Shown: positions 3,499 through 17,836 of the stretch, piece by piece
Position numbering within the stretch: position 1 is the stretch's first letter
Layout: every line of letters starts with the position of its first letter
Assembly (NCBI GenBank): GCA_017397925.1
Contig: JAFQHO010000072.1
Span: 1-64,000 of the forward strand
DNA from: Ruminococcus sp.
GTDB lineage: Bacteria > Bacillota > Clostridia > Oscillospirales > Ruminococcaceae
Direction of reading: 5' to 3'
Length of the DNA stretch: 64,000 bases
Notes under the pieces: generated by a model
Seen by the model: only the letters and a program-made list of their open reading frames with translations
Databases searched by the model: none
Told to the model about the DNA's origin: nothing
Translations under genes and position numbers: made by a program

Positions 3499-3506
3499 TT
3501 GAATAC

Positions 3507-3540: not shown

Positions 3541-3560
3541 ATTTATTACGAGAAATTTAT

Positions 3561-3574: not shown

Positions 3575-3664
3575 CTAAAACTTAATAGCCATTAAAATTT
3601 CCAAAACATTAATAATCTGATACCAAGCTGCGTAATGGGAATTGCATTTAAATCGACAAGAAGA

Positions 3665-4630: not shown

Positions 4631-5592
4631 TTTTTAGATCCTCAAATCTCTTTTTCAAAAAATCTAATGATTCAGACTGCTCGGCATTTCCGAAAACAAA
4701 TTCTTCTATTGCGTCTATAGCAGTTTCACCAAGACTGTCTAATGAAATACCTACTGTGTCATCACCTATTAAAAATTTAAAGCCCTGTGTAGTATAAATT
4801 GGTGCGGAGTCAAATTTAACAGCGAGATTATAAGCATCGGTTATGAATTCTTCTGCTTCATTATAATCACCGAACATTGCTTTCATTACTGCAATTTCAG
4901 CAGAAAGAATAGCTTTTATTTTGTCGATAAAAATAATGCTATTCTTATCGCTTTTTATGCTATCCAAAAAATTATAAAGCCATAAAGCAGCATCTATGCA
5001 AAGCGGATTCTTTTGCTGAGAAAACATAAATACCATTCCACCCATTGTGAGTAGTATATTGTTAATAATATTCATATATGAATGATTGAGATATGTTCTG
5101 GCATTTTCTGGTTGTTTCAGTAATGTATATGTAAAACCGATACGAGCACTATTTATATCACAGATGTTGTTCTGTTTTAATATTTCGAGTCCCTTTTCTG
5201 CTTGTCCTGCATTGAGATAGTTAAGACCGATTAAATTGAGAATGGTTGTTTCATTTACGCTGCTGTCTTTATTCTGGTATAGAAGTGTAATTGCACTACG
5301 GTAAAGCTCGTTTGATTTTAATAATAATTTTTCATCTTTAGCATCAAAATACCACAGCATATATACCTTTGCAGCTGTGTAGACAACATCAAAGTTATTC
5401 GGATATTTCTTTAGTGTCTTTTCAGCTTCAAGCACTGCTTCAACAAAATCTTTTTCTAATAAAAATCGTTTTATCCGTTCAATCCTGTTTTCAATATTTT
5501 CACTCTGTCTGTCATAACCTAAAAGAGTATCAACGGATATTTCAAATAAATCCGCAAGCTCCATTATGAGTTTTACTTCAGGTAAAGATTGA
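4623..5592 (-). pseudogene. 3' part of a split XRE-TPR regulator gene
   Basis: The frame reads GQSLPEVKLIMELADLFEIS and LLGYD, the well-known continuation of a Cro/C1-type HTH that normally follows 'KWE(S/N/A)G'. About 280 residues of TPR-like helices follow. The first 40 codons, with the DNA-binding helices, are missing here; they are found intact at 17,821-17,955 on the same strand. Rejoining at the shared GG dinucleotide restores the frame (KWESG-QSLPEV). A 12.2-kb element therefore interrupted the gene. An internal ATG at 5,564 could still give an isolated TPR protein without its HTH. Confidence 0.92.
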
Positions 5593-5594
5593 CC

Positions 5595-5621
5595 CGTTTT
5601 CCGTAGTTAAAGATATTGATT
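5595..5621 (+). repeat. Left terminal inverted repeat of the 12.2-kb element
   Basis: Read inward, bases 10-21 are TAGTTAAAGATA, identical to the other end and at the same distance from the border. The flanking bases also match in part (GTTT at positions 2-5 in both). Confidence 0.8.
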
Positions 5622-5669
5622 ATGTATGAGTGCCAATGCCATCGTGCAAAGGCACTCATATTCAGTTGT

Positions 5670-6050
5670 TTACTCGATTTTGCCGATAAAGCGGTAGTAG
5701 ATGTCAATATTCTGCTCTCGCACACCGCACTCATTGGTAGCTTCGTGAATAACGATCTTTTCAATCAGCGTATTCAAAAGCTCCGCTGTCAGTTCGGTGG
5801 GATTGGCGTACTGCTTGATAAGGGAAATCCAAGTCTCCGCATCGACAGTTGTTTGCTTTTCAGATTCAAGCTCAGCAGACAGCCTTTCGATCTTCTCGGT
5901 AAGCTCCTGCTGCTCTGTCTGATATTTCTGAGACATCATATTGAAGTTGTATTCCGTGATACGACCGTCCGACCAGTCCTCATACAGCTTCGCAAACTTG
6001 CGGTCAACCTCTGTTCTGCGCTTCTCGGCTCTTGTAAGCTCTTCGTTCTG
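5670..6050 (-). pseudogene. C-terminal remnant of a large serine recombinase
   Basis: The open frame reads QNEELTRAEKRRTEVDR, then LYEDWSDGRITE, MSQKYQTEQQELTEKIERL, and ends with IEKIVIHEATN and IDIYYRFIGKIE. This is the coiled-coil and C-terminal tail typical of TndX/TnpX-like recombinases. The resolvase catalytic domain, the recombinase domain and the zinc ribbon (over 350 residues) are absent. Upstream of about 6,050 the sequence becomes relaxase gene, so a deletion fused the two genes. The stop lies about 75 bp from the element end, where such genes normally sit. An ATG at 5,939 could yield only an 89-residue fragment. Confidence 0.85.
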
Positions 6051-6984
6051 CCTTACGGATGTCCAAATATTTCATCAGCACTTTCGGCAGCATATTCGCT
6101 TCAAGCTCGGCTTGCTCTGCAATCATTTCCTTGCGGCACTCGTTAAGCTCAACGAGCCAGTCACGGAGATTTCGGATCATCTGCTTGATGGACTGCATGA
6201 TGCTGTTGGTCTTTCGGATTTCTCTGTTAAGATTTCCGATGTCTGTTTGGATGCCTCGGCGTTCCATTGCTGTGACGGCAGGACCCATGTGAACAGTTGG
6301 GATCAGGTCAATGCCCTGTGCTTCGTAGGAGCGCAGATCAACACGCTCCGGGCGATTGTCGGCTTCCAGATATTTATTCTGAAAGTCCTGCCAGCCCATA
6401 CGCCATATCATTCCATACTTGCGTTCGTTCCAGTCCACGGTGTTTTCCTTATGGCTTTTCCAGTTGCCGGAGGGGAGACGAATACGCTCGCCGTTCTCGT
6501 CAAGGTCATAAACCTTGCGAGCCTTTGGAAGCCATTTCCCCTTTTCATCCATAGCTCGCATTGTCACCAGAACATGAGCATGGGGATTGTGACCGGGTGG
6601 ATGCGGATCGTGAATCGCAATATCGGCAATCATCCCTTTGGAAACGAAAAATTCATTGCAGTATTCTCGGACGAGCTGCACATATTGTTCTTCTGGGATT
6701 TCTCTCGGAAGGGGAAGATGGAATCTTCGGGCAAGCTGTGAGTTCCATTGATTTTCGATTTCCTCAACGGCGTTCCAGAGAGTATTGCGGTCGGCATACT
6801 CACGGGGGGCGTTGGGTGGCAGCATGATTTCTGTGTGCGTAATACCTTCCTTGGCATCGTAGCTTTTTGTTTCCTTGTCGTATTGGCTGTATAGCTTCTC
6901 GCCGCTTTGGTATGCGGCGGCAGCAACAGCAGATTGTCCTTCGCTTCGTTGGATAACTGCAATATCAAAATGCGGACAAGGCAT
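6004..6984 (-). CDS. MobA/MobL (MobQ-type) relaxase, C-terminally truncated
   Basis: The N-terminal 200 residues match the MobA/MobL relaxase domain: HFDIAVIQRSEGQSAVAAAAY, the histidine cluster PPGHNPHAHVLVTMRAM and LPREIPEEQ. Relaxases of this type nick oriT and lead the strand during transfer. The second ATG (6,984) is preferred, as GGAGG lies 8 bases upstream of it and only 2 upstream of the first. The protein ends soon after LMKYLDIRKAER, where full-length relatives continue for 100 or more residues. From there the DNA belongs to a serine recombinase tail read in another frame. The catalytic domain seems intact; whether the shortened protein works is unknown. Confidence 0.88.
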   Translation of the reverse strand: MPCPHFDIAVIQRSEGQSAVAAAAYQSGEKLYSQYDKETKSYDAKEGITHTEIMLPPNAPREYADRNTLWNAVEEIENQWNSQLARRFHLPLPREIPEEQYVQLVREYCNEFFVSKGMIADIAIHDPHPPGHNPHAHVLVTMRAMDEKGKWLPKARKVYDLDENGERIRLPSGNWKSHKENTVDWNERKYGMIWRMGWQDFQNKYLEADNRPERVDLRSYEAQGIDLIPTVHMGPAVTAMERRGIQTDIGNLNREIRKTNSIMQSIKQMIRNLRDWLVELNECRKEMIAEQAELEANMLPKVLMKYLDIRKAERRAYKSREAQNRG

Positions 6985-7039
6985 AGGCATGACCTCCTTT
7001 CTTGGTCGGGATAGTGGGAGTTGGACAAAACAAAACTTG

Positions 7040-7242
7040 CTGTCTGTGAATGATTGCTCTGCAATCGTTCATAGGCGGCAAGTCCACAAAGGGGTAGCTG
7101 ATAAAGTCAGCGCAGGGGAAGTGTAGCTTCCCCTGTAATGATTTGGAGTTAGCAGTAGCAACGGAAAATTATCTGCACTCCGCATAGGAGCCTTCGGAGA
7201 ACGCAACGCACCGTCATAGGCGGTGTATAGTTGCGCCCTTAC
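7040..7242. other. Probable origin of transfer (oriT), IncQ/RSF1010-like nic region
   Basis: The gap between relaxase and mobilization gene holds several inverted repeats: AATGATTGC / GCAATCGTT-type at about 7,050-7,072, GGGGAAG / CTTCCCC at about 7,113-7,131, and CACCG (7,209-7,213) / CGGTG (7,221-7,225). The last repeat is followed directly by TAGTTGCGCCCTTA (7,228-7,241). IncQ-type nic regions have an inverted repeat followed by TAAGTGCG^CCCT, so nicking is predicted between G and CCC near 7,235. The match to the relaxase type encoded next door supports the call. Confidence 0.65.
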
Positions 7243-7553
7243 TCCGTAAGGGTCTTTCTCGCTTCGCTCTCCGCTGCCAGTTTTTCCAAAACAGACTTCA
7301 TTGCAGGCTGATGAAAAGCAATCTTTATGACTGTCATCACTTCATCATCCGTCAGCAGTTCGGGGTTCGGCAGAAAGCTCTCCAACATACCGGCTCGCGT
7401 GCAAAGTCGGTGAGTTCTGGCGTTTCGTGTCAGCTTGGAGATTTGGTTCTGCAAAATCTTTTCCTTTTGCTTGGCTTTTCTCAATTCGTTTTCGGTTTCT
7501 TCCTTGGCGGCGTAAAGCTCCGACAAGGTTTGTGGCTTCTTTTTTCTGCTCAT
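7239..7553 (-). CDS. Small mobilization accessory protein (DUF3847-like)
   Basis: The 104-residue protein has a coiled coil (about 15-45, rich in E/K/Q/L), a basic patch (KLTRNARTHRLCTRAGMLE) and a C-terminal helical part. This is the usual small partner encoded just upstream of MobA/MobL relaxases in Clostridia; it is thought to help the relaxosome. The start has a GGAGGA site upstream. Its stop codon overlaps the predicted nic region of oriT. Function is inferred from position and resemblance. Confidence 0.75.
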   Translation of the reverse strand: MSRKKKPQTLSELYAAKEETENELRKAKQKEKILQNQISKLTRNARTHRLCTRAGMLESFLPNPELLTDDEVMTVIKIAFHQPAMKSVLEKLAAESEARKTLTE

Positions 7554-7629
7554 TGGCGATTCCTCCTTCTAATAAAAATACCGACTGCCAGGACGGGCAA
7601 CGGTATGTAATGAATTATTGGAAACGGGC

Positions 7630-7664
7630 AAAACAAAAGCGACCAACTATTTACGGTTGATCGC
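7630..7664 (-). terminator. Terminator of the RiPP operon
   Basis: On the minus strand, GCGATCAAC-(8 nt)-GTTGGTCGC forms a 9-bp stem with one mismatch, followed by TTTTGTTTT. It lies 23 bases beyond the last gene of the operon. Confidence 0.85.
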
Positions 7665-7686
7665 CTTTGGCTTGGTCATTTTCATT

Positions 7687-8058
7687 TTAATAGAATGCTC
7701 GCATCAAAATTAAAGTTCTACCGTCATCGGTATAAACATCAACTTTATCACCCTTATGAGATTCTATGGTTGCAAGCAGCTGAGATGAAATCTTTTTCTT
7801 CCCGGCTAAACTTAGAACATCATCATAAACATCAAAAGTTTTACAGCAGTTAATATCATAAATAAAAACCTTCACTTCCAATACGGTACCAAGATATTCT
7901 CCACCAGTAACATATGTTCCATTTCCTCCGGGATAATTATCATATTTATATTGGTCATAGCCCTTTATCCTTTGTTTTATGTAGGTTGCTCGACTTTGAT
8001 ATTTTTCGATTTCAACAATTCGTCCTTTCATAGTTTTCATGTAGTACATCCCTAACAA
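7687..8058 (-). CDS. Unknown protein, last gene of the RiPP operon
   Basis: A 123-residue protein (or about 116 from an internal ATG) with a Gly/Tyr-rich segment near residues 35-55 and a beta-rich pattern after it. It overlaps the preceding zinc-ribbon gene by a few bases and ends just before the operon terminator. It has no membrane segment, signal peptide or family motif that I recognise. The pattern of small beta strands (YLGTVLEVKVFIYDI, DKVDVYTDDGRTLILM) suggests a compact beta-barrel, but this is only an impression. Confidence 0.7.
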   Translation of the reverse strand: MLGMYYMKTMKGRIVEIEKYQSRATYIKQRIKGYDQYKYDNYPGGNGTYVTGGEYLGTVLEVKVFIYDINCCKTFDVYDDVLSLAGKKKISSQLLATIESHKGDKVDVYTDDGRTLILMRAFY

Positions 8059-8270
8059 TTATCTATATCGGAGTGGTAGCGACCTGTACCGTTACACCTC
8101 CTACAACTCGAATATCGGCGTTCGTAATCATTATCTGATAAATAGTGATTATCGTTGATTCTGTAACCTTTTCCGCCACACTCCGGACAAACATCTCTAT
8201 CATCTTTGTCTGTTTGCACTTTCACATCTTTTTTTGCTTTCTTCTTTTTCAGCCATCCCAATAGTTTCAT
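8052..8270 (-). CDS. Small zinc-ribbon protein
   Basis: This 72-residue protein has a basic N-terminus (LLGWLKKKKAKKD) and two CxxC knuckles: CPECGGKGY, and after about 20 residues CRRCNGTG. CxxCxGxG is the DnaJ-type zinc-finger pattern. The ATG at 8,270 was chosen because AAGGAG lies 10 bases upstream; the longer frame overlaps the radical SAM gene. DnaJ-type fingers bind unfolded peptide, so a chaperone-like role for the precursor peptide is conceivable but unproved. Confidence 0.7.
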   Translation of the reverse strand: MKLLGWLKKKKAKKDVKVQTDKDDRDVCPECGGKGYRINDNHYLSDNDYERRYSSCRRCNGTGRYHSDIDNC

Positions 8271-8289
8271 TTTCCGCTGTCTCCTTTTC

Positions 8290-9528
8290 TTAAAACGGTG
8301 TGCCATAAAGTCTGATTTTTTGCTCAATGGCTGTTCGATGAGCTTTGTAATACTCCGATAAGAAAGTATCCTTTATCTTTTTTATGTCTTCTAACTTGAA
8401 TCTATTTAGTCCATTTTCAAAACAAGCAAATACATGGTCTTTTACTTTTTGTTCATCATCAAGAGACTCATAAAGAGTAGACCCTATCATATAATCAAGA
8501 TTTTTTATATTGACTTGGTCAAACTCACAATTTCTGATAAGGTAAAATGTTTCGTTGATTGTTTCCTCGGTTTCCATTGGAGCACCTATAATAAAATTAC
8601 CCACGGTAAATATGCCGATAGAATTAGCATATTGAATAATGCTCGGCACTTTCTTTATATTGATGTTTTTTCTGTAAAATTGCAGTATTTCACTGTTTCC
8701 GCTTTCAATGCCGAAACTGATAATTCGTATATTACATTTCTTCGCTAAGTCCAAAAATTCTTCATCAATGTTTGCCCAACTACTAATAAAGAATCGGAGG
8801 TCTTCATGCAAATTTGCCTGCATGATTTTGCTTAGTAATTTCTTCGCCCTGGAAAGATTAAACGTAAAATTTTCATCTGTAATCCATACATTTCTGTACC
8901 CGTTTTCCTTAATGGTCTTCAACTCGTCCAGTACATATTCGTCTGAATGGGTAACATAACAATGTTGCCAACCTTTTCTTTGGCAGAATATACAAGTGTT
9001 TTCACACCCCTTAGAAGTCTGCAAAAGAGTGTTCCTTTCGTTGTCCTTATAGTATGGAATGGGCAAGAGCATACTTCTGTCGATATACGGAAGTTCATCA
9101 TATGCCTCTACATGAGGAATGGTACTGTTTTTCTCATACTGATTGACGAAATCAATGATGTTGTTAATTTCGTTATCGGTTACTGTTTGCTTTGCATTGC
9201 CAAAATCTTTCTTGGTGATATAGCAATAGTTTCCGTAAGCGATTGTGTGAGTATATTGATTTAACATATCAATGATTTCTGCGGCGTGTAAAATGTTTTG
9301 GGAACGCTTCAATGCATAAGAGTCGCATTCAACAAGAGCAATATCAACATCTTCTCTACGCACATATTCTATAAGTTCATGCTCATCAAAAGTCTCACAT
9401 GAATAATCTTTAATACCTACTTGATGGTATTTAGACAAGATCGTAGCGATCAAAAGCATTTCATAAGAAAAACCAAATCTTGGTTTCTTAGCTTTATCTG
9501 GCTTCGGATAAATTACAAGAACATTCAT
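8290..9528 (-). CDS. Cobalamin-type (B12-binding) radical SAM enzyme
   Basis: The N-terminal 160 residues resemble a B12-binding domain (LVIYPKPDKAKKPRFG, VDIALVECDS). The radical SAM domain begins at about 165 with TSKGCENTCIFCQRKG, a CxxxCxxC cluster for [4Fe-4S]/SAM; GIESGNSEILQFYRK and GNFIIGAPMETEET follow as in B12-radical SAM enzymes. Such enzymes often methylate unreactive carbons or rearrange C-C bonds. The gene is 3 bases downstream of the toroid gene and clearly part of the operon. The target may be the Cys/Asn-rich peptide or a small molecule; the sequence does not decide. Confidence 0.85.
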   Translation of the reverse strand: MNVLVIYPKPDKAKKPRFGFSYEMLLIATILSKYHQVGIKDYSCETFDEHELIEYVRREDVDIALVECDSYALKRSQNILHAAEIIDMLNQYTHTIAYGNYCYITKKDFGNAKQTVTDNEINNIIDFVNQYEKNSTIPHVEAYDELPYIDRSMLLPIPYYKDNERNTLLQTSKGCENTCIFCQRKGWQHCYVTHSDEYVLDELKTIKENGYRNVWITDENFTFNLSRAKKLLSKIMQANLHEDLRFFISSWANIDEEFLDLAKKCNIRIISFGIESGNSEILQFYRKNINIKKVPSIIQYANSIGIFTVGNFIIGAPMETEETINETFYLIRNCEFDQVNIKNLDYMIGSTLYESLDDEQKVKDHVFACFENGLNRFKLEDIKKIKDTFLSEYYKAHRTAIEQKIRLYGTPF

Positions 9529-9531
9529 AGC

Positions 9532-10329
9532 CTATACCTCCAAGTATTTTTCGGCTTGAGTCAATGCAAATAATCCCCATGAAGCACCATCCTCAATTTC
9601 GTGATATGCCCATATTCCGCTTTTCAATTGCGTTCTGCACAGATATTCATATCCTCGCTTAATGGTTTCTCTGTAAGCATCATCTTGCATACTGATTAAA
9701 GCGACCAACGCAACGGCTGTACAATAAACATTTTCCCCAACAGGATGATTGAGCCATGGAGCAAACCCTCCACTTACTTCCTGCTGCTTGCATAACCATG
9801 TAACCGTCTCATGAATAAGTTTATCATTTGTCGTAGGTTTATAATTATTTTGGTTAAATGCTAAAATCGAATATGCCGCTTTATAGGTCAAAGAATTTAA
9901 CTCCGAACTCCATGTCTTCTCCAGCCATTCCAAGTTTTTCTCCGTTGCAATCTCCGGCAATAAATATAGTGCAAGACCTGTTACGGGGATTCGGTGCATA
10001 TCTCGCTTGCTTCTCCCAAATCCTTCTTCATCACCATTACCTGACACGAGCCACTTTATTGCTCTCTTGCGTTCCGTCTCATATTGAGGATAGAACTCCA
10101 AGAATTTAATGTTCCATAAGGTATCTGTATTACCAATAAATCCACCGTCGTCTTTTTGAGACGCAAGGCATTTATCGATAATTTTTGAGGGAATATCGTG
10201 TGAAGAAAGACCCGACATAAGAAGTAAAGCACAGGTTTTTGTGATGCGGCGAATTTCGATATTCTTTCTGAACATCTCATTACACATATTCAATAGCGAC
10301 ATTGTCGCTCTATTTTCGTATTTTGACAT
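9532..10329 (-). CDS. Prenyltransferase/terpene-cyclase-like alpha/alpha-toroid protein
   Basis: The 265-residue protein has repeats of the squalene-cyclase/prenyltransferase beta-subunit type: CLASQKDDGGFIGN, WLVSGNGDEEGFGRS, WLCKQQEVSGGFAPW and CRTQLKSGIWAY, each with the Q/G-rich turn and aromatic residue. These form an alpha/alpha toroid. No DxDD cyclase motif is visible and the protein is shorter than squalene-hopene cyclases, so it may instead be a binding or prenyltransferase-like subunit. It is 3 bases downstream of the AsnRS-like gene and 3 bases upstream of the B12 radical SAM gene. Confidence 0.8.
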   Translation of the reverse strand: MSKYENRATMSLLNMCNEMFRKNIEIRRITKTCALLLMSGLSSHDIPSKIIDKCLASQKDDGGFIGNTDTLWNIKFLEFYPQYETERKRAIKWLVSGNGDEEGFGRSKRDMHRIPVTGLALYLLPEIATEKNLEWLEKTWSSELNSLTYKAAYSILAFNQNNYKPTTNDKLIHETVTWLCKQQEVSGGFAPWLNHPVGENVYCTAVALVALISMQDDAYRETIKRGYEYLCRTQLKSGIWAYHEIEDGASWGLFALTQAEKYLEV

Positions 10330-10332
10330 TAT

Positions 10333-11256
10333 TTAGTCCTCCGATTTTACTCTTGGAAAAAAGCGTGTATCACGAATTTGGTCTGCGCCAATAATCCATC
10401 GCACAAGTCTATCAATTCCTAATCCGAAGCCACATCGATCTGTCTTGATTTTTTTTACAGAATCAACATACCATTGAATTGGCTCCACCTTTGCAAGGCG
10501 TATTTTATTTTGAAGCAGTTCAACATCATTGGTTCGTTCGCAACCTTCACATAGTTCTCCATATGTTTCCGGCAGTAAAATATTCATTGCGATGCTTTTT
10601 CCGTTTCCTATATTTTTAGAAGTCCATGTAGCAAACCTGGTAGGGTAATCGACGATTATTACAATCTCCTTTAGTTGCTTCGACACTAAATAATCTACAT
10701 CACTAATATCTGTGCGTTCATCGTAATCATCCCCGGATAGGTTCGATACAAAGTCATCGTATGTCATAATGTGAGGAGTAAGTTCATCTTTTAACTTCAT
10801 TATCCTTGCGGTCAGCTCGGACAATGATTTTATGGAGGAAGATTCCGACAGTTGATCCAAAACAAATTCCAAATAGGATTGAATCAGTTGTATCATATCA
10901 TCCATGGTGCAATTCAACATCTCCACCTCCAGGATGTCAAATTCCACCAAATGATTCAAGGTGTCACATTCGTCACGGAAGCATTTCGATATAGTAAATA
11001 CCTTGTTAAATTCAGAGGCATACATACCCATAAACAATGCATTGCTGGACGATAATGAATACTTTCCATTATACAGAGGAATATAAATCTCCGATTTCTT
11101 GTTTGCGATTGCCTCATGGAGAACAGGTGGTTCAACAAAAATAAAATCTCTATCGAAAAAGAATTTACATGTCAACCTTTCTATCTCGCTCCTCACAAGA
11201 ACAGCTTGCCTTTTTGTTTCTGTTATCGACCAGTAATATGCATTGTCTGTATTCAC
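10333..11256 (-). CDS. AsnRS-like class II synthetase core without anticodon-binding domain
   Basis: The protein is a class II aminoacyl-tRNA synthetase catalytic core closest to AsnRS/AspRS. Motif 2 is FTISKCFRDE with HLVEFDILEVEM after it, and motif 3 is GFGLGIDRLVRWIIG followed by IRDTRFFPR, as in AsnRS. The OB-fold anticodon-binding domain of AsnRS (about 100 N-terminal residues) is missing; the protein starts directly before motif 1. Stand-alone cores of this kind include archaeal asparagine-synthetase-related proteins that make amides through an acyl-adenylate. In this operon it may activate a carboxylate on the peptide or on an attached acid. A role in ordinary translation is unlikely. 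Confidence 0.85.
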   Translation of the reverse strand: MNTDNAYYWSITETKRQAVLVRSEIERLTCKFFFDRDFIFVEPPVLHEAIANKKSEIYIPLYNGKYSLSSSNALFMGMYASEFNKVFTISKCFRDECDTLNHLVEFDILEVEMLNCTMDDMIQLIQSYLEFVLDQLSESSSIKSLSELTARIMKLKDELTPHIMTYDDFVSNLSGDDYDERTDISDVDYLVSKQLKEIVIIVDYPTRFATWTSKNIGNGKSIAMNILLPETYGELCEGCERTNDVELLQNKIRLAKVEPIQWYVDSVKKIKTDRCGFGLGIDRLVRWIIGADQIRDTRFFPRVKSED

Positions 11257-11258
11257 AT

Positions 11259-12449
11259 CTATTCTCCGTTTCTCACCCAGTTAATTATTCTGGGAGCATC
11301 TGGGTTTTCAGCTACATAGCCGTTTTTACTTAACATATTTATCATTTTATGATTAGATGCATTTGTTTTCGCCATATTTTTATGAAAAGCACGATGATAA
11401 TGACTTATCAATTTAGTGGCTACACCTTTGCCACGATATTCCGGAAGAACAAGTATTTCTTCCAATAAAGAATAACCTTCCGGACGTCCACTTTCACGCA
11501 AAAATCCGACAACTCTATTCTCATACACAGCAACATAACAATGCCTTTCACTTCTGATAATTTGTCTAATCAGTGACGCTTTATTGCCATAGGCTAAGAA
11601 TTTTTGGTCTTCGCTACTTATCGAATTAAACATATCCATGACAGAATCAACATCTGCCTTTTTTGCTCGGCGAACATAGACATCGTTTTTCACCTCCAGC
11701 AATCTTTCTATATTTTCGTGAAAGATTAGCTCACTCTGCTCACGGCTTAAGTTTTGCTTGAGGGCATTGAGTTCATCGGTATATCTATATTTTTCGCCCA
11801 AACAATTTTTACCAAATGGATAATCTGAAGCGTAAATCACTCTGTCATATCCAAGAATCTCACATACATTGATTATCGACGGCAAATCACCGACAGTAGA
11901 TAAGTCCATATACACATTAGGATATTTCTTAAGTGCTAATGCATTATCAATCGTTTGCTCACCGGTATATAGGTGTCCTCTACCCATATGAGCCAGAATA
12001 ATATTGAGGTTAGGTGCGTATTTTAATATTTGTTCGACCTGCTTAACCTTATTTGCAAATTTCGCATGAAGAATAAGAGGGATGTTAGCATCTTCTATTT
12101 GTTGAAGTTCCTTCTTAATATTTTTTATATCTACTTCCTCATAAAGAAGATGTAATTTTACCCCTCGGAAGCCTTTCTCGATATTTTCTTCCAAATGTTC
12201 ATCTATTCTGCAAAAGGGGATTAGTCTATCTGAATGTTTTTGATAGGCTTCAAAAACATAGCTGTTTGCTTTTACAGTATTGAAGTCCTTGTGTGGAATG
12301 GGCAAAATTATAGCCATATCAACATCACTGGCATCCATCAGTTCGATGATCTCGTCGTATGTGGAACAGAGGTCGTACTGAAACTCGCTATTTTCGTTGT
12401 CGCAAAAGGACTGTAAACCTATATGCATATGTGCATCAATAATTCTCAT
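11259..12449 (-). CDS. Amidohydrolase-2 / GNAT acetyltransferase fusion
   Basis: Residues 1-255 are an amidohydrolase TIM barrel: metal ligands HMHIG at the start, LHAKF, ILAHMGRGHLY and YASDYPFG. Residues 265-395 form a GNAT domain with VRRAKKADVDSV, LLEEILVLPEYRGKGVATKL (acetyl-CoA-binding RGKGVA loop) and ending NGE. A two-domain fusion of a decarboxylase/hydrolase and an acetyltransferase is unusual. The ATG at 12,449 was chosen because GGAGGAGG lies 7 bases upstream; the 7 extra codons upstream in the frame are not needed. The gene is the first after the precursor peptide and its stem-loop, so it may tailor the peptide or make a building block. Confidence 0.85.
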   Translation of the reverse strand: MRIIDAHMHIGLQSFCDNENSEFQYDLCSTYDEIIELMDASDVDMAIILPIPHKDFNTVKANSYVFEAYQKHSDRLIPFCRIDEHLEENIEKGFRGVKLHLLYEEVDIKNIKKELQQIEDANIPLILHAKFANKVKQVEQILKYAPNLNIILAHMGRGHLYTGEQTIDNALALKKYPNVYMDLSTVGDLPSIINVCEILGYDRVIYASDYPFGKNCLGEKYRYTDELNALKQNLSREQSELIFHENIERLLEVKNDVYVRRAKKADVDSVMDMFNSISSEDQKFLAYGNKASLIRQIIRSERHCYVAVYENRVVGFLRESGRPEGYSLLEEILVLPEYRGKGVATKLISHYHRAFHKNMAKTNASNHKMINMLSKNGYVAENPDAPRIINWVRNGE

Positions 12450-12471
12450 TTCTTTGCCTCCTCCATGCACA

Positions 12472-12507
12472 AGAAGGGGGACTCTTTATGCAAGAGTGCC
12501 CCCTTCT
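12472..12507 (-). promoter_or_regulatory. Strong stem-loop between precursor and tailoring genes
   Basis: On the minus strand AGAAGGGGGCACTCTT and AAGAGTCCCCCTTCT form a 15-bp stem with one bulged base around a GCAT loop, 9 bases after the precursor stop codon. No U-run follows, so it is more likely an mRNA-stabilising or partial processing signal than a full terminator. Such structures are typical behind RiPP precursor genes, where they raise precursor over enzyme levels. Confidence 0.7.
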
Positions 12508-12516
12508 CATTACGGT

Positions 12517-12639
12517 TTAGTTGCAATTGCAATTTGTGCAACCGAAGCACCAATTACCTTCACTAAAGTTTTCCCAAACATCCTTAGTGAAAAGCATTTC
12601 GTCTTCTTCCAGAATGATAGGTGCAGAATACTCTTTCAT
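12517..12639 (-). CDS. RiPP precursor peptide, 40 residues, Cys/Asn-rich core
   Basis: This small gene is absent from usual length-filtered ORF lists. An ATG at 12,639 has AAGGAGG 7 bases upstream and starts 2 bases after the PqqD gene stop. Residues 1-28 form an acidic, leader-like segment (EEDE at 11-14, then a Trp/Phe-containing stretch) ending in SEGN. The C-terminal core is WCFGCTNCNCN, with four cysteines at 31, 34, 37 and 39. Placement directly behind a radical SAM/SPASM and a PqqD-like gene is the classic arrangement for a RiPP precursor. Thioether cross-links from Cys are the expected change, but only chemistry can show this. It is not the six-cysteine SCIFF type. Confidence 0.85.
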   Translation of the reverse strand: MKEYSAPIILEEDEMLFTKDVWENFSEGNWCFGCTNCNCN

Positions 12640-12641
12640 GG

Positions 12642-12917
12642 TCAAACCTCCTTCAAAATGTTTTTATCGACAGCAGTCTGAATCATCAAAGAACAGTCTG
12701 CAATCAATCGTTCCTTATCAACCGCATACTCTTTTTTTACAATCGCAATCATTTCCTCGACCGTAGATGCATCTCTAAACGAGTCCAAAATAAGATAAGA
12801 AACTTCGTTTAGACGATACTGATTACCGTTCTCAACATTTAGTGCCCAGCACTTGCTGTCAATTTTTCTTAATACAATTTCTTCTTTGAGCTGAAACTTT
12901 TTCGTTAAATCCAACAT
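12642..12917 (-). CDS. PqqD-like RiPP recognition protein
   Basis: The 91-residue protein has the PqqD fold pattern: VLRKIDSKCWALNVENGNQYRLNEVSYLILDSF followed by helices, in short strands and a winged-helix layout (the N-G-x-x-Y-x-L-N turn is diagnostic). PqqD-like domains bind the leader of the precursor and present it to the radical SAM enzyme. The start overlaps the end of the radical SAM gene by 13 bases and the stop is 2 bases before the precursor ATG, so the three are translationally coupled. Confidence 0.88.
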   Translation of the reverse strand: MLDLTKKFQLKEEIVLRKIDSKCWALNVENGNQYRLNEVSYLILDSFRDASTVEEMIAIVKKEYAVDKERLIADCSLMIQTAVDKNILKEV

Positions 12918-13930
12918 TGAATGTCCTCCCCCATATAATCACCTGTAGTTGCATAAGCAATCGCTCTGCATCCACCGCAGCGCTCAACATTAACGCACCC
13001 GTGGCATTTTCCCTTCAAATTGTTTTTGTCTCTTATTTGCCACAGAATATCGCTGTCATACCAAATTTTAAATAGTCCATCTTCGAGAATGTTTCCAATA
13101 GGAATTTCCAGGCGTCTACACGGTAATACAGTTCCATCCCAAAGGATAGCTAATGAAGTCAGTCCGACTGGACAAAAACCTCCTATCTTTTCATTGCCGG
13201 TGCAGTCCAGATGTGCTGTGTTGATCCACAAAGGACGCAAGCGTCTTACAGTGAGTTTGGAGTTTATTTCATTCGCACGCACTGTAATTCCTTCGTAAAT
13301 GGACTTGATTTCTTCCTTGCTTAGAATGTCGTCCAAACTACTGTGTCCACAAGGAGTGACTCTCTCGACTGTTACCGCATTTACATTGCACTGCTCTGCA
13401 AAATCAATAATCTGCAAAGCATATTCCTTGTTCTGACGCATCAAGGTAAACATAAAGGAAACCTCGATATTATTAGCTTGCAGTTTCTTAATTGTTTCCA
13501 AAACCTTTCGGAATGTTCCTTTTCCTCTAACTCCGTCATGAATTTCTTCAATCGGACCATCCAGCGAGATTTGAATCTGATGTAGTTTTTTGGACTGAAC
13601 CAGAGCTGCAATATGTTCGTCTGTTATGCAGGTTCCGTTTGTTAGAATATCAAACTGTTTAATTTCGTCTGATTTTTCCAAAAAGTCAACCAATGTAAGT
13701 ATATGTGGGCTTAAAAAAGGCTCTCCTCCTGTCAGAGATATTCTGCCCAACATATTCCATTTTCTTAAAGCAGTTGTGATTTGGTTCCCAATTTGTAATA
13801 ATTTATCCAATGGTAAGTCTTCGTAATGATAGCCTTCTTGATAGCAATGAGCACATCTCAAGTTACAGCTATTCATAAAATGCCATTGAAAATAGAATTC
13901 TTCTTTCTTCATATTTTCTACTTGCTCCAT
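12905..13930 (-). CDS. Radical SAM/SPASM peptide-modifying enzyme
   Basis: The radical SAM cluster motif is at residues 19-26 (SCNLRCAHCYQEG, CxxxCxxC), followed by SLTGGEPFLSPH. The C-terminal SPASM region holds GFCPVGLTSLAILWDGTVLPCRR, GNILEDG, then CHGCVNVERCGGCRA and a last Cys near the end, enough for auxiliary Fe-S clusters. SPASM enzymes install thioether or carbon-carbon links in peptides (AlbA, PqqE, MftC types). The ATG at 13,930 overlaps the HTH gene; an internal ATG at 13,912 is possible, and neither has a good ribosome site. The enzyme, PqqD-like partner and precursor form the pathway core. Confidence 0.9.
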   Translation of the reverse strand: MEQVENMKKEEFYFQWHFMNSCNLRCAHCYQEGYHYEDLPLDKLLQIGNQITTALRKWNMLGRISLTGGEPFLSPHILTLVDFLEKSDEIKQFDILTNGTCITDEHIAALVQSKKLHQIQISLDGPIEEIHDGVRGKGTFRKVLETIKKLQANNIEVSFMFTLMRQNKEYALQIIDFAEQCNVNAVTVERVTPCGHSSLDDILSKEEIKSIYEGITVRANEINSKLTVRRLRPLWINTAHLDCTGNEKIGGFCPVGLTSLAILWDGTVLPCRRLEIPIGNILEDGLFKIWYDSDILWQIRDKNNLKGKCHGCVNVERCGGCRAIAYATTGDYMGEDIQCWI

Positions 13931-14229
13931 TCGTGTATTTTGATTACGACACTTTCAGAAAAACCTATGTTTTTAACAAAAGTATTGTTATACAATCCGC
14001 TTTGAAGAAGTATCTCTGCCGTCTTTTCCCTTAAAGAGAAGAAGGATACCATTGAAATTATGATAGACCTTGTAAGTTTTTTCTCTTTATGTTCCATGTT
14101 TATAACCGATTGTCGAGAGACACCTATTATTTTGGAAAAATCTTCTTGCGTTAGGTTTAATGCATTTCTTAATTGAGGGAGAGTGTCACACATCAAATCT
14201 ATGCACTCCATAATTCCATCGTTATCCAT
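13918..14229 (-). CDS. XRE-family regulator of the RiPP operon
   Basis: A 103-residue Cro/C1-type protein. The HTH is at about 16-55 (LPQLRNALNLTQEDFSKIIGVSRQSVINMEHKEKKL); the remainder is a short helical tail that may form dimers. GGAGGTAGAGT precedes the ATG at 14,229. The promoter directly upstream contains a 33-bp inverted repeat centred between -35 and -10, so autoregulation of the whole operon is likely. Confidence 0.88.
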   Translation of the reverse strand: MDNDGIMECIDLMCDTLPQLRNALNLTQEDFSKIIGVSRQSVINMEHKEKKLTRSIIISMVSFFSLREKTAEILLQSGLYNNTFVKNIGFSESVVIKIHEWSK

Positions 14230-14251
14230 ACTCTACCTCCAATCTAATATT

Positions 14252-14293
14252 AGTATAACACACGAAATGTAAAAAGTAAATACATTTCATGTG
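14252..14293 (-). promoter_or_regulatory. RiPP operon promoter with operator palindrome
   Basis: On the minus strand a -35 TTTACT (14,275-14,280) and -10 TATACT (14,252-14,257) are 17 bp apart. Overlapping them is the inverted repeat CACGAAATGTA (14,261-14,271) / TACATTTCATGTG (14,281-14,293) with a 9-bp spacer. It covers the -35 box and spacer, as expected for a repressor site of the adjacent HTH protein. Confidence 0.75.
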
Positions 14294-14415
14294 ATTTGAT
14301 GCTGACGATTTGTAAATATTCTGTGAATTTGCACTTAAACCCATCTGAGACTGTTGATTTTATCCTCATAATTCCTCTGCAATAATTGAATGTATTTTGT
14401 GTCCTTTGTAAGTTC

Positions 14416-14455
14416 ACGGTCAAAGCAACGGGGTTAAACCCGTTGCTTTGACCGT
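14416..14455. repeat. Perfect 17-bp inverted repeat at the cargo boundary
   Basis: ACGGTCAAAGCAACGGG and CCCGTTGCTTTGACCGT flank a 6-base loop. It lies 12 bases after the stop of the minus-strand gene at 14,468 and about 120 bases upstream of the RiPP promoter. No U-run follows on either strand, so it may be a processed hairpin or a poor terminator that insulates the RiPP operon from the element backbone. Confidence 0.6.
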
Positions 14456-14467
14456 AGCCTTTGTCTA

Positions 14468-14767
14468 TCAGCTTTCCGGCTTACTCTGGAAGCCGTTCTT
14501 TTTGGCGTACTCACTGGCATTCTTTCTGCGTTCCTCGGTGTAGGGGACAGTCAGACGGATGGATAAACGCCACTTGTCAATCTCAAAGGACATGCAACCG
14601 ATGTCAGCATCATCCTCGGTCATACGGCAGAGGTCGGGGTATTTCTCCGAAAAGGCAGTCAAGCGGTTCTTTAGGTCGGTGTTGTGGGTGCGGATATAAA
14701 CAATCTTTCTTCTTTTGTCAAAGGAAATATCCGTGGTCTTTTGCTCCTTTGGCACTTCTGTTCGCAT
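14468..14767 (-). CDS. Conserved conjugative-element protein of unknown function
   Basis: A 99-residue protein, charged, with alternating beta strands (RRKIVYIRTHN, IDKWRLSIRLTVPYTEE) and a basic end. Similar small proteins are common in Clostridial conjugative elements, but I cannot give a function. It has no membrane segment. The ribosome site is weak. It is separated from the next backbone gene by about 170 bases without a clear gene. Confidence 0.65.
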   Translation of the reverse strand: MRTEVPKEQKTTDISFDKRRKIVYIRTHNTDLKNRLTAFSEKYPDLCRMTEDDADIGCMSFEIDKWRLSIRLTVPYTEERRKNASEYAKKNGFQSKPES

Positions 14768-14939
14768 AAGGGCTCTTTTCTGCTCAAGTGTAACGAATTA
14801 GGGCGTTTTTGGGGTCTTTTTTCGGCTCATGAGCTGCGAAAACAGCGATTTTCAAATAGAAATTGCTCCGGCGATACATTCTTCGTCCGGAGCACTTCTA
14901 TCGGCTTTTTTCGTTTTTTTACAACTCTTGCCCGTGTTT

Positions 14940-15140
14940 TCACTCCTTGCTGTTCGTATGCCGTTTCAGCCATGCGATCAGCTCGCTTTTCATCACCATT
15001 TTGCGCCCACCGATACGCAGGGTTGGGAAATCCAGGGCGTTCAAAAGGTTGTACGCACCCGCTTTGGAAATCTGCAAGGCTTTTGCAAGCTGCTTGGCAT
15101 CCATCACATTGGGCATAGTTTCAAAAGGCTCTCTGTTCAT
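14940..15140 (-). CDS. Excisionase-type helix-turn-helix protein
   Basis: A 66-residue protein with the MerR/excisionase-like winged HTH pattern MDAKQLAKALQISKAGAYNLL followed by TLRIGGRKMVMKSELIAWLKRH. Such proteins direct excision by recombinases or act as small regulators. The ATG at 15,140 is preferred because AAGGAGG lies 7 bases upstream; the longer frame has no such site. The matching recombinase in this element is broken (see 5,670-6,050). Confidence 0.82.
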   Translation of the reverse strand: MNREPFETMPNVMDAKQLAKALQISKAGAYNLLNALDFPTLRIGGRKMVMKSELIAWLKRHTNSKE

Positions 15141-15189
15141 AAAATCCTCCTTTCGGGCATCAAAAAAGCAGCCACGGTTATCGTGACTG

Positions 15190-15672
15190 CTATAATCTGC
15201 GAACAACATACTTAAGATTACTCTGGCTTAAGTATGTGTAATAATATCTCTCATAGTTTTCTCTAAGTTTTCGGTCATACTTAGCTTCCCCATGATTTGC
15301 TCCTGTCTGAAAGTGCGTAATTTCATCGAGAAGTACATCTGCTAAAAAATCCGATTCTTGTTTGACCGTATTCGGCAGTACAGATTTCTTCAACAAACTT
15401 GTGCTTTTGGGTTGTGCCATTTGTATTGCCTTTGTTGAAATCCAAATCTCATGCGTATCTGGGACAAAAAAACCATAATCTCTACCTCTTGTACCAACTA
15501 AAACCGAACTCGCTATTTTGCTTGAGTAGAAACTCTCTGCATCAAAAATCACCCAAGAAATCTGTGAATCATCAAAACAAATTTTTCGGCATACCTCAGT
15601 AATTTTCTCTTGAAGCACCATTTCGTATATGGCGATATGTGCCGATTGATTATTATATCTTATTTTGCTCAT
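15190..15672 (-). CDS. Unknown element protein, 160 residues
   Basis: The start at 15,672 (MSKIRYNNQSAH) has AGGTGG 6 bases upstream; the longer frame runs into the sigma-like gene in a different reading frame. The protein has an alternating strand/helix pattern (ISWVIFDAESFYSS, GRDYGFFVPDTHEIWIST) and a His-containing stretch DVLLDEITHFQTGANHGEAKYDRKLRENY. That last part looks a little like a metal-binding helix, but no family can be named. It follows the sigma-like gene by 13 bases. Confidence 0.65.
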   Translation of the reverse strand: MSKIRYNNQSAHIAIYEMVLQEKITEVCRKICFDDSQISWVIFDAESFYSSKIASSVLVGTRGRDYGFFVPDTHEIWISTKAIQMAQPKSTSLLKKSVLPNTVKQESDFLADVLLDEITHFQTGANHGEAKYDRKLRENYERYYYTYLSQSNLKYVVRRL

Positions 15673-15685
15673 AGTCCACCTTTTT

Positions 15686-16627
15686 TTACTTTGTGTGCTT
15701 ATCCAAAAAGCTGCCGTACTCACCGGACACGTACTCCTCATACGCACCGGCGATCTTCTCGATATGCTTGCTGACGGCGCTCGGTGTCTTGAATCCCACA
15801 GCGGCGGCAATGTCCTTGAGTGAACTGCCGTCCATTCGCATCCGCAGGATTTGCTTGTCCTGCTCCGTCAGTCTTCGCTCGAACTGTTCAATGCCGATCT
15901 TTTGCAGCACCTTTGTTTCAAACTCCGCTTCGGGGTTTGGAATGTCGAACAGCATTTCGCCGTCGATCATAGCGCCGGTTTCTGCGATTTCTTCGATAGA
16001 GAGGTGCTTGTGATTTCTGTTATGATACCACGAACGGTTAAAGTCCCGCTTGTGGACGCTGGAGCCACTGTAATCATCGGGATTGCGGTTTTTCCAGAAC
16101 TCATCGATCATTGGCTGCCAGTTTTCCTCGGCAACGATCATGTCCGTGAGATTGCCGATCAAATTACTGAACTGCTGATAAGTGAGCCAGGGATGCTCGC
16201 CATCTCTGTCCATCAGAAACAGCCGTTGGAAGCTCCAATCCATTTCCGTCTCAAACTTCTTGCGGAAATGCTTGATGATTTCATAGGACAGCCGCCAGAG
16301 AGGAAAGTCACCGGAGTAATTCTTCCAATCACCGGGAACATCCTTGTATGTGCCGTTCTTGCTCGGCACTTGGAAGAATTGCCACGCAGACCACGCAAAG
16401 CAGTCCCATACGAGCAGCAGGAACATATCATTTTCAATAATTTTCATGCTGTCGGGATCGTCAAGCAATTCATAGATGTTTCTCGGCAAGGACAGCGCAG
16501 GGGGATACTTCTCGACAAGCTCTCTCGGCAGCGCATAGAACAGCGTCAGCCATGAAAGATTGCTCTCTTGGGGTATTTCGATAATGCCATCGGGCACGAC
16601 GGCGAAGAAGCTGTAGCGTAGGCTCAT
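15686..16627 (-). CDS. Sigma-70 region 4-like element regulator
   Basis: A 313-residue protein starting MSLRYSFFAVVPDGIIE. Its C-terminal part (about 245-300) has a sigma region 4-like HTH: FERRLTEQDKQILRMRMDGSSLKDIAAAVGFKTPSAVSKHIEKI. The N-terminal 240 residues are rich in Trp and Phe and have no known domain. Proteins of this form are widespread in conjugative elements of gut Clostridia and are thought to control element genes. ATG 16,627 was chosen from the spacing (10 bases) to GGGAG. Just upstream lie four 49-bp palindromic units. Confidence 0.75.
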   Translation of the reverse strand: MSLRYSFFAVVPDGIIEIPQESNLSWLTLFYALPRELVEKYPPALSLPRNIYELLDDPDSMKIIENDMFLLLVWDCFAWSAWQFFQVPSKNGTYKDVPGDWKNYSGDFPLWRLSYEIIKHFRKKFETEMDWSFQRLFLMDRDGEHPWLTYQQFSNLIGNLTDMIVAEENWQPMIDEFWKNRNPDDYSGSSVHKRDFNRSWYHNRNHKHLSIEEIAETGAMIDGEMLFDIPNPEAEFETKVLQKIGIEQFERRLTEQDKQILRMRMDGSSLKDIAAAVGFKTPSAVSKHIEKIAGAYEEYVSGEYGSFLDKHTK

Positions 16628-16660
16628 GTGGTTCATCTCCCTTCGATTGTCATTTGCTGT

Positions 16661-16917
16661 GTTACGGATAGTGTAAGTTACCAACTTGGGAACTTGGCTC
16701 ATCCGTAACAATTTTGCTGAAAGTGAAAAGTCTCATTTTCGGACTGTTCGTTACGGTTAGGCGAGTGGGCAAAATGTCCACTTACGGTAACTGTAACAAC
16801 AGTACCGCTGCTGTTTTGGCGGTGGTCATTTTGACCACTACCATTAGCCGTAACATTTTACGATTTCCGTTACGCTTATTCCAAGTTGTCAACTTGACAA
16901 CTTGCCTTATCCGTAAC
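16661..16917. repeat. Four 48-49-bp palindromic units with constant outer arms
   Basis: Unit A (16,661-16,709) has outer arms GTTACGGAT / ATCCGTAAC and an inner palindrome at 16,675-16,695. Unit D (16,869-16,917) has outer GTTAC / GTAAC and inner CAAGTTGTCAA-C-TTGACAACTTG at 16,882-16,904. In both, inner and outer palindromes share one centre. Unit B (16,750-16,797) has inner AGTGGGCA / TGTCCACT. Unit C (about 16,806-16,854) has inner GTGGTCA / TGACCAC and a decayed left arm. Inner arms differ between the A/D and B/C types while pairing is kept. Unit D overlaps the end of a zinc-ribbon frame. Confidence 0.8.
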
Positions 16918-17112
16918 GCTTCCGCGGTATGCTTTCTGTCGGCAGGCATTGCAGCAGTATTTGGCATCTGACCGCTTCGGCGTAAAAGGCTTGCCGCAGG
17001 TCTGACAGATGCGGTCTTTTCTTGCATGCTTTCGCCGCCACTTTAATTCCTTTTGATAACCTCGATTGCCGCACAGGGAGTACAGACAATATTTCTTGGT
17101 TTCGATCTGCGT
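16876..17112 (-). pseudogene. Zinc-ribbon frame without a start codon
   Basis: This open frame of 78 codons clearly encodes a zinc finger: DRICQTCGKPFTPKRSDAKY then CCNACRQKAYRG. No ATG, GTG or TTG precedes the finger. The frame begins inside the upstream zinc-ribbon gene. A minus-one shift near its end (at ATC AAA AGG) would join the two into one protein with two zinc ribbons. Either a one-base frameshift broke an originally longer gene, or recoding is used. A third frame across the same DNA is low-complexity and not credible. Confidence 0.6.
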
Positions 17113-17246
17113 TTAAACACCCTGCCGCAGCCTTTGCAGTAAATCTTTCTGACGGCAAGATCAGGACATTCGCCGGAAACTTTTTTCTCGTATAGGCTTT
17201 TAAGGTAGTCTTGATTGTAATATTCCCATTCGCCGTTCCAAATCAT
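17043..17246 (-). CDS. Small zinc-ribbon protein of the element
   Basis: A 67-residue protein starting MIWNGEWEYY (TTGGAGG lies 8 bases upstream of the ATG). Its C-terminal half is a zinc ribbon: IYCKGCGRVFKRRSKPRNIVCTPC, two CxxC pairs 17 residues apart. It overlaps the start-less zinc-ribbon frame at 16,876-17,112 by about 70 bases. It may bind DNA as a small regulator; the exact role is unknown. Confidence 0.7.
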   Translation of the reverse strand: MIWNGEWEYYNQDYLKSLYEKKVSGECPDLAVRKIYCKGCGRVFKRRSKPRNIVCTPCAAIEVIKRN

Positions 17247-17454
17247 TCGTACATCCTCCAAAGCAAATATTAAGAGATATTTCCATCCCCCTCTATAACA
17301 GAGGGTACGAGAAGGCTCATTTTTTTCCAACTTCTCAAAAATTTTTTGAAATTTCTTAGATTTTTACGATTGACATCGGAATCGAAGCGAAAGAAACGAT
17401 TTTATCATTATTATACAGGAAAAATGTGAATAAATCTATTATTTCTAATAAGGG

Positions 17455-17501
17455 CAAAAAATTAAGTGGTATCCGAACCACCAAAGGCTCGGATACCACT
17501 T
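17455..17501 (-). terminator. Terminator after the 81-residue element protein
   Basis: AAGTGGTATCCGA / TCGGATACCACTT is a perfect 13-bp stem. On the minus strand it is followed by AATTTTTT. It ends transcription of the gene at 17,510-17,755. Confidence 0.88.
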
Positions 17502-17509
17502 CGGTCAGG

Positions 17510-17755: not shown

Positions 17756-17809
17756 AGGGTTTTACCTCCAAAATTTGATTATTGGAAGTATCGTAAGCGT
17801 GGGTTTTGA

Positions 17810-17836
17810 AAGCGGTATCTTTAACTATGTGAAACC
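17810..17836 (-). repeat. Right terminal inverted repeat of the 12.2-kb element
   Basis: Read inward from the border, TAGTTAAAGATA occupies bases 10-21, exactly as at the left end. The flanking GG (17,837-17,838) matches the GG beside the left border. Confidence 0.8.

Follow-up and report, generated by a model that had tools for sequence, protein, structure and literature searches.

The 64-kb stretch of Ruminococcus sp. contig JAFQHO010000072.1 analysed here (the window) carries on its minus strand an operon that very probably specifies a new pathway for a ribosomally synthesized and post-translationally modified peptide (RiPP), whose seven co-transcribed genes are cargo of mobile elements. 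These core genes, the conserved unit 13930-8290, encode a radical S-adenosylmethionine (SAM) enzyme with a SPASM domain, a PqqD-like protein, the precursor peptide, an amidohydrolase-GNAT fusion, a protein derived from asparaginyl-tRNA synthetase (AsnRS) that we call AsnL, an alpha/alpha-toroid protein and a B12-type-like radical SAM enzyme. On the minus strand they are preceded by a helix-turn-helix (HTH) gene, interrupted by a hairpin after the precursor and followed by a DnaJ-like gene and a 123-residue open reading frame (ORF). All families that an earlier note had listed for this DNA, from radical SAM/SPASM through DnaJ-like, are confirmed on the minus strand by Pfam matches, with DnaJ under its cut-off; the HTH family is matched as well. 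We compare the window with two other copies, one in a metagenome-assembled genome of Candidatus Blautia stercorigallinarum (G682, stretches L050 and L079), in which the toroid gene is also present, and a diverged one from IMG/VR (L120/L122). The features are as follows.

14252..14293, minus strand: promoter-like site with TG before the -10 and a 13-nucleotide inverted repeat around the -35, likely the operator of the HTH protein (promoter scan, repeat search)
13918..14229, minus strand: XRE-type HTH regulator, 103 residues (HTH_3 1.3e-7, Pfam; nucleotides 100% identical in G682)
12905..13930, minus strand: radical SAM/SPASM peptide maturase, 341 residues (Radical_SAM and SPASM; alternative start ATG 13912 possible)
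12642..12917, minus strand: PqqD-like protein, predicted leader-binding RiPP recognition element (RRE), 91 residues (PF05402 1e-10)
12517..12639, minus strand: precursor peptide, 40 residues, of which 1-29 are leader (55% identity to the L120 precursor)
12520..12552, minus strand: core peptide WCFGCTNCNCN, residues 30-40 (11/11 identical in both lineages)
12469..12510, minus strand: hairpin between the precursor and the downstream genes (-35.6 kcal/mol and z -5.5, both for an 86-nucleotide stretch)
11259..12449, minus strand: amidohydrolase-GNAT fusion, 396 residues (PF04909, Amidohydro_2, 8.5e-23 and PF00583, GNAT, 8.4e-12, in one ORF)
10333..11256, minus strand: AsnL, AsnRS-derived class II synthetase core, 307 residues, GTG start (tRNA-synt_2 5.4e-40; no oligonucleotide-binding (OB) domain)
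9532..10329, minus strand: alpha/alpha-toroid protein, 265 residues (Prenyltrans toroid 6.1e-9)
8290..9528, minus strand: B12-type-like radical SAM enzyme, 412 residues (Radical_SAM; B12-type NCBIfam families among the best matches)
8052..8270, minus strand: DnaJ-like zinc-ribbon protein, about 72 residues, accessory (DnaJ_CXXCXGXG 3.9e-6, under the Pfam cut-off)
7687..8058, minus strand: 123-residue ORF, accessory (no Pfam match)
7634..7669, minus strand: terminator-like hairpin closing the unit, its 3' side rich in T (-19.4 kcal/mol, z -5.95)

The precursor, MKEYSAPIILEEDEMLFTKDVWENFSEGNWCFGCTNCNCN (40 residues, 12639-12517), is the sole frame whose final 10 residues include four or more Cys, among the 420 ATG-started frames of 30-80 residues in the window, counting every in-frame ATG. 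The pattern C-x-G-C-x-N-C-N-C-N-stop matched one stretch in IMG/VR, L120, on a 133-kb contig, and the 40-residue precursor encoded there, MEKYEAPVFKELGGVEFAEDIWEEFCKGKWCFGCTNCNCN, is 55% identical to that of the window. Only 11 of 29 leader residues are identical between the two precursors, compared to all 11 residues of the core; five of the eleven core codons differ between the lineages, all synonymously, and at the leader rate the probability of a fully identical core is about 2e-5 (a simple product). Both cores end in Asn with the Cys spacing CxxCxxCxC, and both leaders keep a Y-x-A-P motif; lasso leaders have a similar Y-x-x-P motif. The locus thus combines the variable leader, conserved core and adjoining modifying enzymes that are general to RiPPs, and an RRE (PF05402, PqqD) is found in both the window and L120 copies.

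L120/L122 encodes all seven core genes in the window order, with 25-55% protein identity, and a scan of IMG/VR with a toroid alignment recovered the operon in one of 49 stretches, on the same contig. The earlier note had read the gene row as a single RiPP pathway, expected the same neighbours and a conserved precursor in other genomes, and regarded copies without a precursor or PqqD gene as evidence to the contrary. Indeed, L120 has both the neighbours and a precursor with the identical core, and 0 of three copies (window, G682, L120) lacks a precursor or PqqD gene. Since the seven genes are ordered alike in both lineages and the core is identical, we assign the downstream enzymes to the precursor's pathway, and the single-pathway interpretation is supported. 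The conserved set is narrower than the note had drawn it. The HTH, DnaJ-like and 123-residue proteins have no tblastn match (E 0.1) in 7.7 kb of L120, and because they are not found beside the diverged operon we place their genes outside the set; the DnaJ-like zinc ribbon is thereby dropped as a pathway member. The gene spacing of 2-4 bases or overlaps does not extend past the precursor, where ATG 12449 is the most likely start of the amidohydrolase-GNAT gene, leaving a gap of 67 nucleotides that contains the strong hairpin.

The radical SAM/SPASM enzymes of the window and L120 are 47% identical, with the CxxxCxxC and SPASM cysteines invariant. In NCBIfam, the window protein scores 148 where SbtM requires 350 and 147 where the ACGX maturase requires 400. 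Within a sample of genomes from the host's class, the genes of its three nearest relatives (33% identity) directly follow genes for proteins with Gly/Cys/Ser-rich tails, which fits a maturase acting on a C-terminal Cys-rich sequence. At L092, L093 and L094, radical SAM/SPASM genes lie right after genes for products ending in Cys/Gly/Ser repeats, for example SSCGGCGG. The PqqD proteins are 27% identical, that of L120 matching the Pfam family at 1.5e-10, and weak similarity to lasso PqqD proteins is seen in NCBIfam (8.1e-6, 25.9 of 80 bits). The amidohydrolase-GNAT fusions share 25% identity over their full length; HxH, two further His and one Asp are invariant, presumably in ligand roles.

AsnL and its L120 ortholog (29% identity) keep the class II catalytic motifs. 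Residues R94, E96, H102, E234, R241 and R283 are common to both orthologs, the host AsnRS and two proteins resembling asparagine synthetase A (AS-A), while at N72/A73, D107, E237 and C239 the two orthologs agree with each other and depart from the host AsnRS and from the two AS-A-like proteins. Where the orthologs have N72/A73, the host AsnRS has Gly-Gln, a Gln that we take to bind the substrate amino group. Judged by these positions, AsnL retains the adenylation residues in an altered pocket. The host also has a separate, full-length AsnRS-type gene of about 462 residues, named from its sequence. The anticodon-binding OB domain of a functional AsnRS was not found in the window AsnL by Pfam, as the earlier note had stated, but the description does not extend to the L120 ortholog, which retains it (PF01336, 1.5e-6). 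Because the window copy is without the domain, the function common to both copies does not require that the domain bind tRNA. AS-A-like genes occur in other biosynthetic surroundings: one adjoins methylaspartate mutase and non-ribosomal peptide synthetase genes on a Streptomyces plasmid, and another, on a Xenorhabdus megaplasmid (L041, 9872-10951), is clustered with leuS and another aminoacyl-tRNA-ligase-related gene near the xye RiPP cluster.

The toroid proteins are 44% identical and share the invariant blocks GRSKRDM-x-RIPVTG, GGFAPWLNHPV and HEIEDGASWG, which likely mark an active or binding site. The protein is squalene-cyclase-like in sequence, and we considered a terpene cyclase; this role is unlikely, because NVYC stands at what we take to be the position of the catalytic Asp motif of squalene-hopene cyclase. 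The B12-like enzyme is 29% and 44% identical to two pieces in L120. That it is a radical SAM enzyme, as the earlier note had it, is clear from Pfam; B12 binding is suggested by resemblance, and no B12-binding Pfam domain was matched.

The earlier note had the unit running from a single regulated promoter to a clear terminator. Upstream, the inverted-repeat arms (14259-14271 and 14281-14293) straddle the -35 hexamer, and the repeat is likely the operator of the HTH protein; the promoter scan is weak by itself, with 25 sites found in the window versus 24.1 expected by chance. Downstream, the hairpin at 7634-7669 is seen but is absent from a consensus terminator scan of the window (7 sites found, 3.7 expected). 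The hairpin after the precursor may be an attenuator or processing element; a hairpin lies in the same position after the precursor in L122 (z -2.6), and Rfam gave the window hairpin a sub-threshold match only.

The near-identical copy was recovered with a degenerate pattern built on one EFD motif of the AsnRS-like gene, which matched four stretches in IMG/VR and 36 in genome_contigs. By tblastn of the operon proteins, the operon is present in none of the four and in one of the 36 (L050), where the genes covered encode proteins of 99.5-100% identity; another of the genome_contigs stretches, L055, has a weak match to the AsnRS core only. All seven core genes are open in both the window and Blautia copies; the precursor, PqqD and HTH genes are 100% identical and the others have dN ≤0.005, copies too similar to test selection with much power. 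The DnaJ-like gene differs by two changes, both of them replacements and none silent, whereas the 123-residue ORF differs by a one-base indel and in how it ends. The similarity extends well beyond the operon and defines one further feature:

5578..17850, no strand: mobilizable element carrying the operon, its recombinase and relaxase genes shortened by deletion in the window (contig comparison, Pfam)

Over this region the window and the Blautia contig are 98.6-99.2% identical, interrupted by about 2.3 kb absent from the window. The Blautia copy encodes a recombinase of 534 residues, which we take to be a large serine recombinase, and a MobA/MobL relaxase of 596, compared to remnants of 89 and 328 residues in the window (DUF4368, MobA_MobL). 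Long ORFs for both occur only in G682 and L114. L114 has both element ends at 79-90% identity, and no gene between them has a tblastn match to the operon proteins (E 0.001). Partial matches to the element backbone were found in 8 of 109 genomes of the host's family, own included, two of them over <45 bases. The insertion point is alike in the window, in Blautia and in L114, directly after the same Lys-Trp-Glu codons of an HTH-type frame (recognised by translation) that the element disrupts. These are different HTH-type genes in the three genomes, and a common protein motif seems to be the target. A site-specific recombinase, a MobA/L relaxase, defined ends and different host sites are the features by which integrative mobilizable elements are recognised; judged by its ends, its recombinase and relaxase and the shared insertion motif, the operon is cargo of such an element. 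Elsewhere in the window, a phage-type integrase beside a D5-like gene (20176-22874) and a partial MzaA-like gene (26854-27627) suggest a second mobile region, and just outside the element a 523-residue ORF (18332-19903) lies in a stretch of 28% GC; neither Pfam nor PADLOC gave it a match within the limits applied.

The diverged copy has a different setting. An RtcR-type sigma-54 activator gene (Pfam RtcR 4.8e-20; PADLOC RtcR CARF_AAA_HTH 3.7e-99) adjoins the L120 operon divergently, and between the two lies TGGCACGTTTATTGCT, the sole exact match in 20.8 kb to what we take to be the sigma-54 promoter consensus. The CARF domain of Salmonella RtcR is reported to bind tRNA fragments that end in a cyclic phosphate (PMC7790460). 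No RtcB was found on the L120 contig, although this contig may be incomplete. It encodes terminase, portal, tail sheath, tape measure and baseplate proteins and integrases, so the diverged copy is phage-associated and probably mobile as well. Genes for BrxC, PglX, PglZ and BrxL are also present, and these BREX genes start about 19 kb from the operon; L126 (7128-19963) shows BrxL, PglZ, two PglX-like pieces, a Fic-like protein and BrxC. Two similar terminase/portal-like gene pairs (L124, 13604-17190; L127, 11866-15354) are also seen, and the contig may hold two related prophages.

To the extent sampled, the gene set is rare. Genomes were sampled evenly within larger groups, and every count includes the own genome. 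AsnL was found in 1 of 394 genomes of the order (E 1e-44) and the B12-like enzyme in 1 of 391 of the class (E 1e-30), in both cases the own genome only. The radical SAM/SPASM enzyme was found in 9 of 391 class genomes (E 1e-36; others at 29-34%), the amidohydrolase-GNAT fusion in 14 of 391 (E 1e-12; the rest mainly over the amidohydrolase part) and the toroid in 8 of 297 family genomes (E 0.001), the other seven being weak, with 26-36% identity over about 100 residues. No other operon gene was found by tblastn (E 0.1) at the eight radical SAM loci. Among the 13 amidohydrolase loci besides the own, each retrieved with 11-20 kb of sequence, only L027 matches SPASM there. There (2184-7808, in G662, a 1.4-Mb genome of the host's class) three radical SAM/SPASM genes, a 172-residue gene, an amidohydrolase gene and a GNAT gene stand in a row, possibly another uncatalogued cluster. 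We considered L027 as a relative of the operon and give it little weight, as its 71-residue gene is not PqqD by Pfam and its GNAT is not significantly similar to that of the window. Searches of plasmids and phages gave no operon match, or nothing closer than family level among the matches listed (for some searches the best 20 records), and scans of IMG/VR with five single operon proteins, which required an exact 8-residue match and missed L120, gave no relative.

The earlier note knew of no described RiPP class with this gene set, and we found none either among the families and papers listed by our searches. None of the ten operon proteins scores above the curated cut-off of a listed NCBIfam family (the best 25 of 85 for the SPASM protein and the best 25 of 28 for the B12-like enzyme). 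No paper on the gene set was recognised among the listed open-licence matches for combinations of RiPP, radical SAM, PqqD, GNAT, amidohydrolase and AsnRS, and the core string WCFGCTNCNCN matched a single paper, which is unrelated.

From the gene order, core, hairpin and catalytic motifs, all read in the sequence, we infer the following chemistry and function. The PqqD protein would bind the leader, perhaps at the Y-x-A-P common to both, and present the peptide to the radical SAM/SPASM enzyme, which would modify the Cys-rich core, most likely with thioether or other radical cross-links; the hairpin would yield precursor in excess over the enzymes. AsnL would form an acyl-adenylate. Because both cores end in Asn and the AsnRS pocket Gln is replaced, our best guess is a reaction at the peptide's C-terminal Asn, which AsnL would activate ahead of amidation, ligation or cyclisation. 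The toroid may bind or cyclise the core, the B12-like enzyme could add a further carbon-centred change, and the amidohydrolase-GNAT fusion might trim, acylate or detoxify an intermediate. By Pfam, no exporter or leader peptidase is encoded among the operon genes of either copy; a search for the C39 peptidase family gave one match in the own genome and none in G682, so no exporter of C39 type is shared. Because of this lack of exporter and leader peptidase, and of the RtcR-type activator at one copy, we envisage a product of fixed structure that is probably an intracellular effector or stress molecule.

Several points weigh against this account. The pathway is known here from its genes, and its unchanged core comes from one deep comparison, as only two independent lineages were found. 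AsnL and the amidohydrolase-GNAT fusion are just 25-29% alike between copies, and the B12-like enzyme of L120 is split over two frames, whether by an assembly error or by a genuine frameshift. The L122 hairpin is the weaker one, with 5 of 200 shuffles folding equally well. Sigma-54 patterns with ≤2 mismatches occur in the 20.8 kb at about the chance number (9 found, 9.26 expected), so that it is the exact match and its position that would speak for a promoter. Finally, the proposal for the C-terminal Asn is a guess that draws on the residue roles ascribed to aspartyl-tRNA synthetase (AspRS) and AsnRS.

What the product does can be read in several ways. Given that the operon is rare in the samples and mobile, and that in one lineage it lies with an RNA-damage-type activator and BREX, we favour an intracellular stress or conflict product as the probable reading, with a cofactor as second choice. 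The most specific form of this idea is speculative and, as a whole, rather unlikely: an RNA-damage-inducible RiPP of mobile elements, in which phage-rich regions and mobilizable elements carry a peptide-adenylating aminoacyl-tRNA-synthetase-core enzyme acting on a C-terminal Asn, the product being a fixed intracellular conflict (anti-phage or anti-element) effector or a new peptide-derived cofactor.

A cofactor or metal-binding peptide for the use of the host cell, comparable to pyrroloquinoline quinone (PQQ) or mycofactocin, is a possibility that deserves attention without being the one we would choose. Cofactors and molecules with a single target have fixed cores more often than diversifying bacteriocins do, and the unchanged core, the pairing of PqqD with radical SAM chemistry, the CxxCxxCxC spacing and the lack of exporter and peptidase genes all agree with such a product; however, a gene set that is rare and carried by mobile elements does not, no obvious apo-enzyme is encoded in the conserved set, and the NCBIfam cut-offs for PQQ and mycofactocin are not reached. 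We consider it doubtful that the peptide follows the logic of microcin C, as a Trojan horse that turns its activated C-terminal Asn against the AsnRS or AspRS of other cells while GNAT and amidohydrolase provide self-immunity. An AsnRS-derived enzyme does adjoin a GNAT beside cores ending in Asn, and the GNAT domain of MccE is reported to confer immunity in microcin C (PMC12250964), but Pfam gave no match to ThiF-like MccB and no exporter among the operon proteins, and no C39 match was found in G682. It is improbable that the peptide serves as a scaffold in the manner of pearlins, its C-terminus lengthened by an amino acid that the AsnRS-like enzyme provides, then modified and released as a small molecule: an enzyme type that activates amino acids is present and the L120 copy keeps its OB domain, but no match to a LanB-like peptide aminoacyl-tRNA ligase (PEARL) was found among the operon proteins by Pfam, nor a protease, and the window copy without the domain indicates that tRNA charging is not a shared need. 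That the 67-nucleotide gap with its hairpin divides a simple radical SAM RiPP from an unrelated small-molecule pathway is very improbable, as the seven genes are found together, ordered alike, in two settings whose regulators and flanks are unrelated.

If the preferred reading of a single RiPP pathway is right, it would define a new class in which an AsnRS core, an amidohydrolase-GNAT fusion, a terpene-cyclase-like toroid and two radical SAM enzymes, types not usually seen together, converge on one 40-residue peptide. The unchanged 11-residue core is a defined substrate and makes every step testable in vitro; if AsnL activates the peptide, an enzyme type of translation has been put to a new use. 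The RtcR-type activator, together with a mobile setting close to BREX, suggests that RNA damage, mobile-element conflict and peptide chemistry are connected. PADLOC matched no whole anti-phage system to the operon. Its matches of the SPASM protein to pVip (3.1e-19) and of the B12-like enzyme to the candidate PDC-M51A (1.3e-13) both lie over the radical SAM part, and we take both to be at superfamily level; the HTH, toroid and DnaJ-like proteins gave weaker matches.

Compared to known systems, the operon is closest in outline to sactipeptides and ranthipeptides (SbtM, ACGX), with which it shares a radical SAM/SPASM maturase, a PqqD-type RRE and a short precursor with a Cys-rich C-terminus. It differs from them in scores far under the cut-offs, in four further enzyme genes and in a core unchanged in both lineages; the enzyme type for such an assignment is present, and a Cys thioether linkage would be a candidate product of it. 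Like microcin C (MccB, MccE), it has a short peptide ending in Asn, an enzyme that by homology adenylates, and a GNAT domain, but the fold is that of an AsnRS-type class II enzyme rather than ThiF, and radical SAM enzymes and a Cys-rich core are added. The likeness to the AsnB-type RiPP enzymes PesC and TsrC and to lasso cyclases would lie in ATP-dependent activation of a peptide carboxylate; AsnB-type amidating enzymes and lasso cyclases have a fold different from class II AsnRS, the core found here, and the lasso pair of AsnB-type cyclase and transglutaminase-like protease was not found among the operon proteins (Pfam, NCBIfam). AsnB-type enzymes are reported to amidate or nitrilate RiPP C-termini (PMC13060819). 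AsnRS and AS-A share their class II catalytic motifs with AsnL, although the window AsnL is without the OB domain, its pocket is changed in both orthologs and it is additional to the host AsnRS-type gene. AcmF and SbzA are likewise synthetase relatives recruited to biosynthesis, in their case to the ascamycin and SB-203208 pathways, where their action is not on a ribosomal peptide (PMC12945691).

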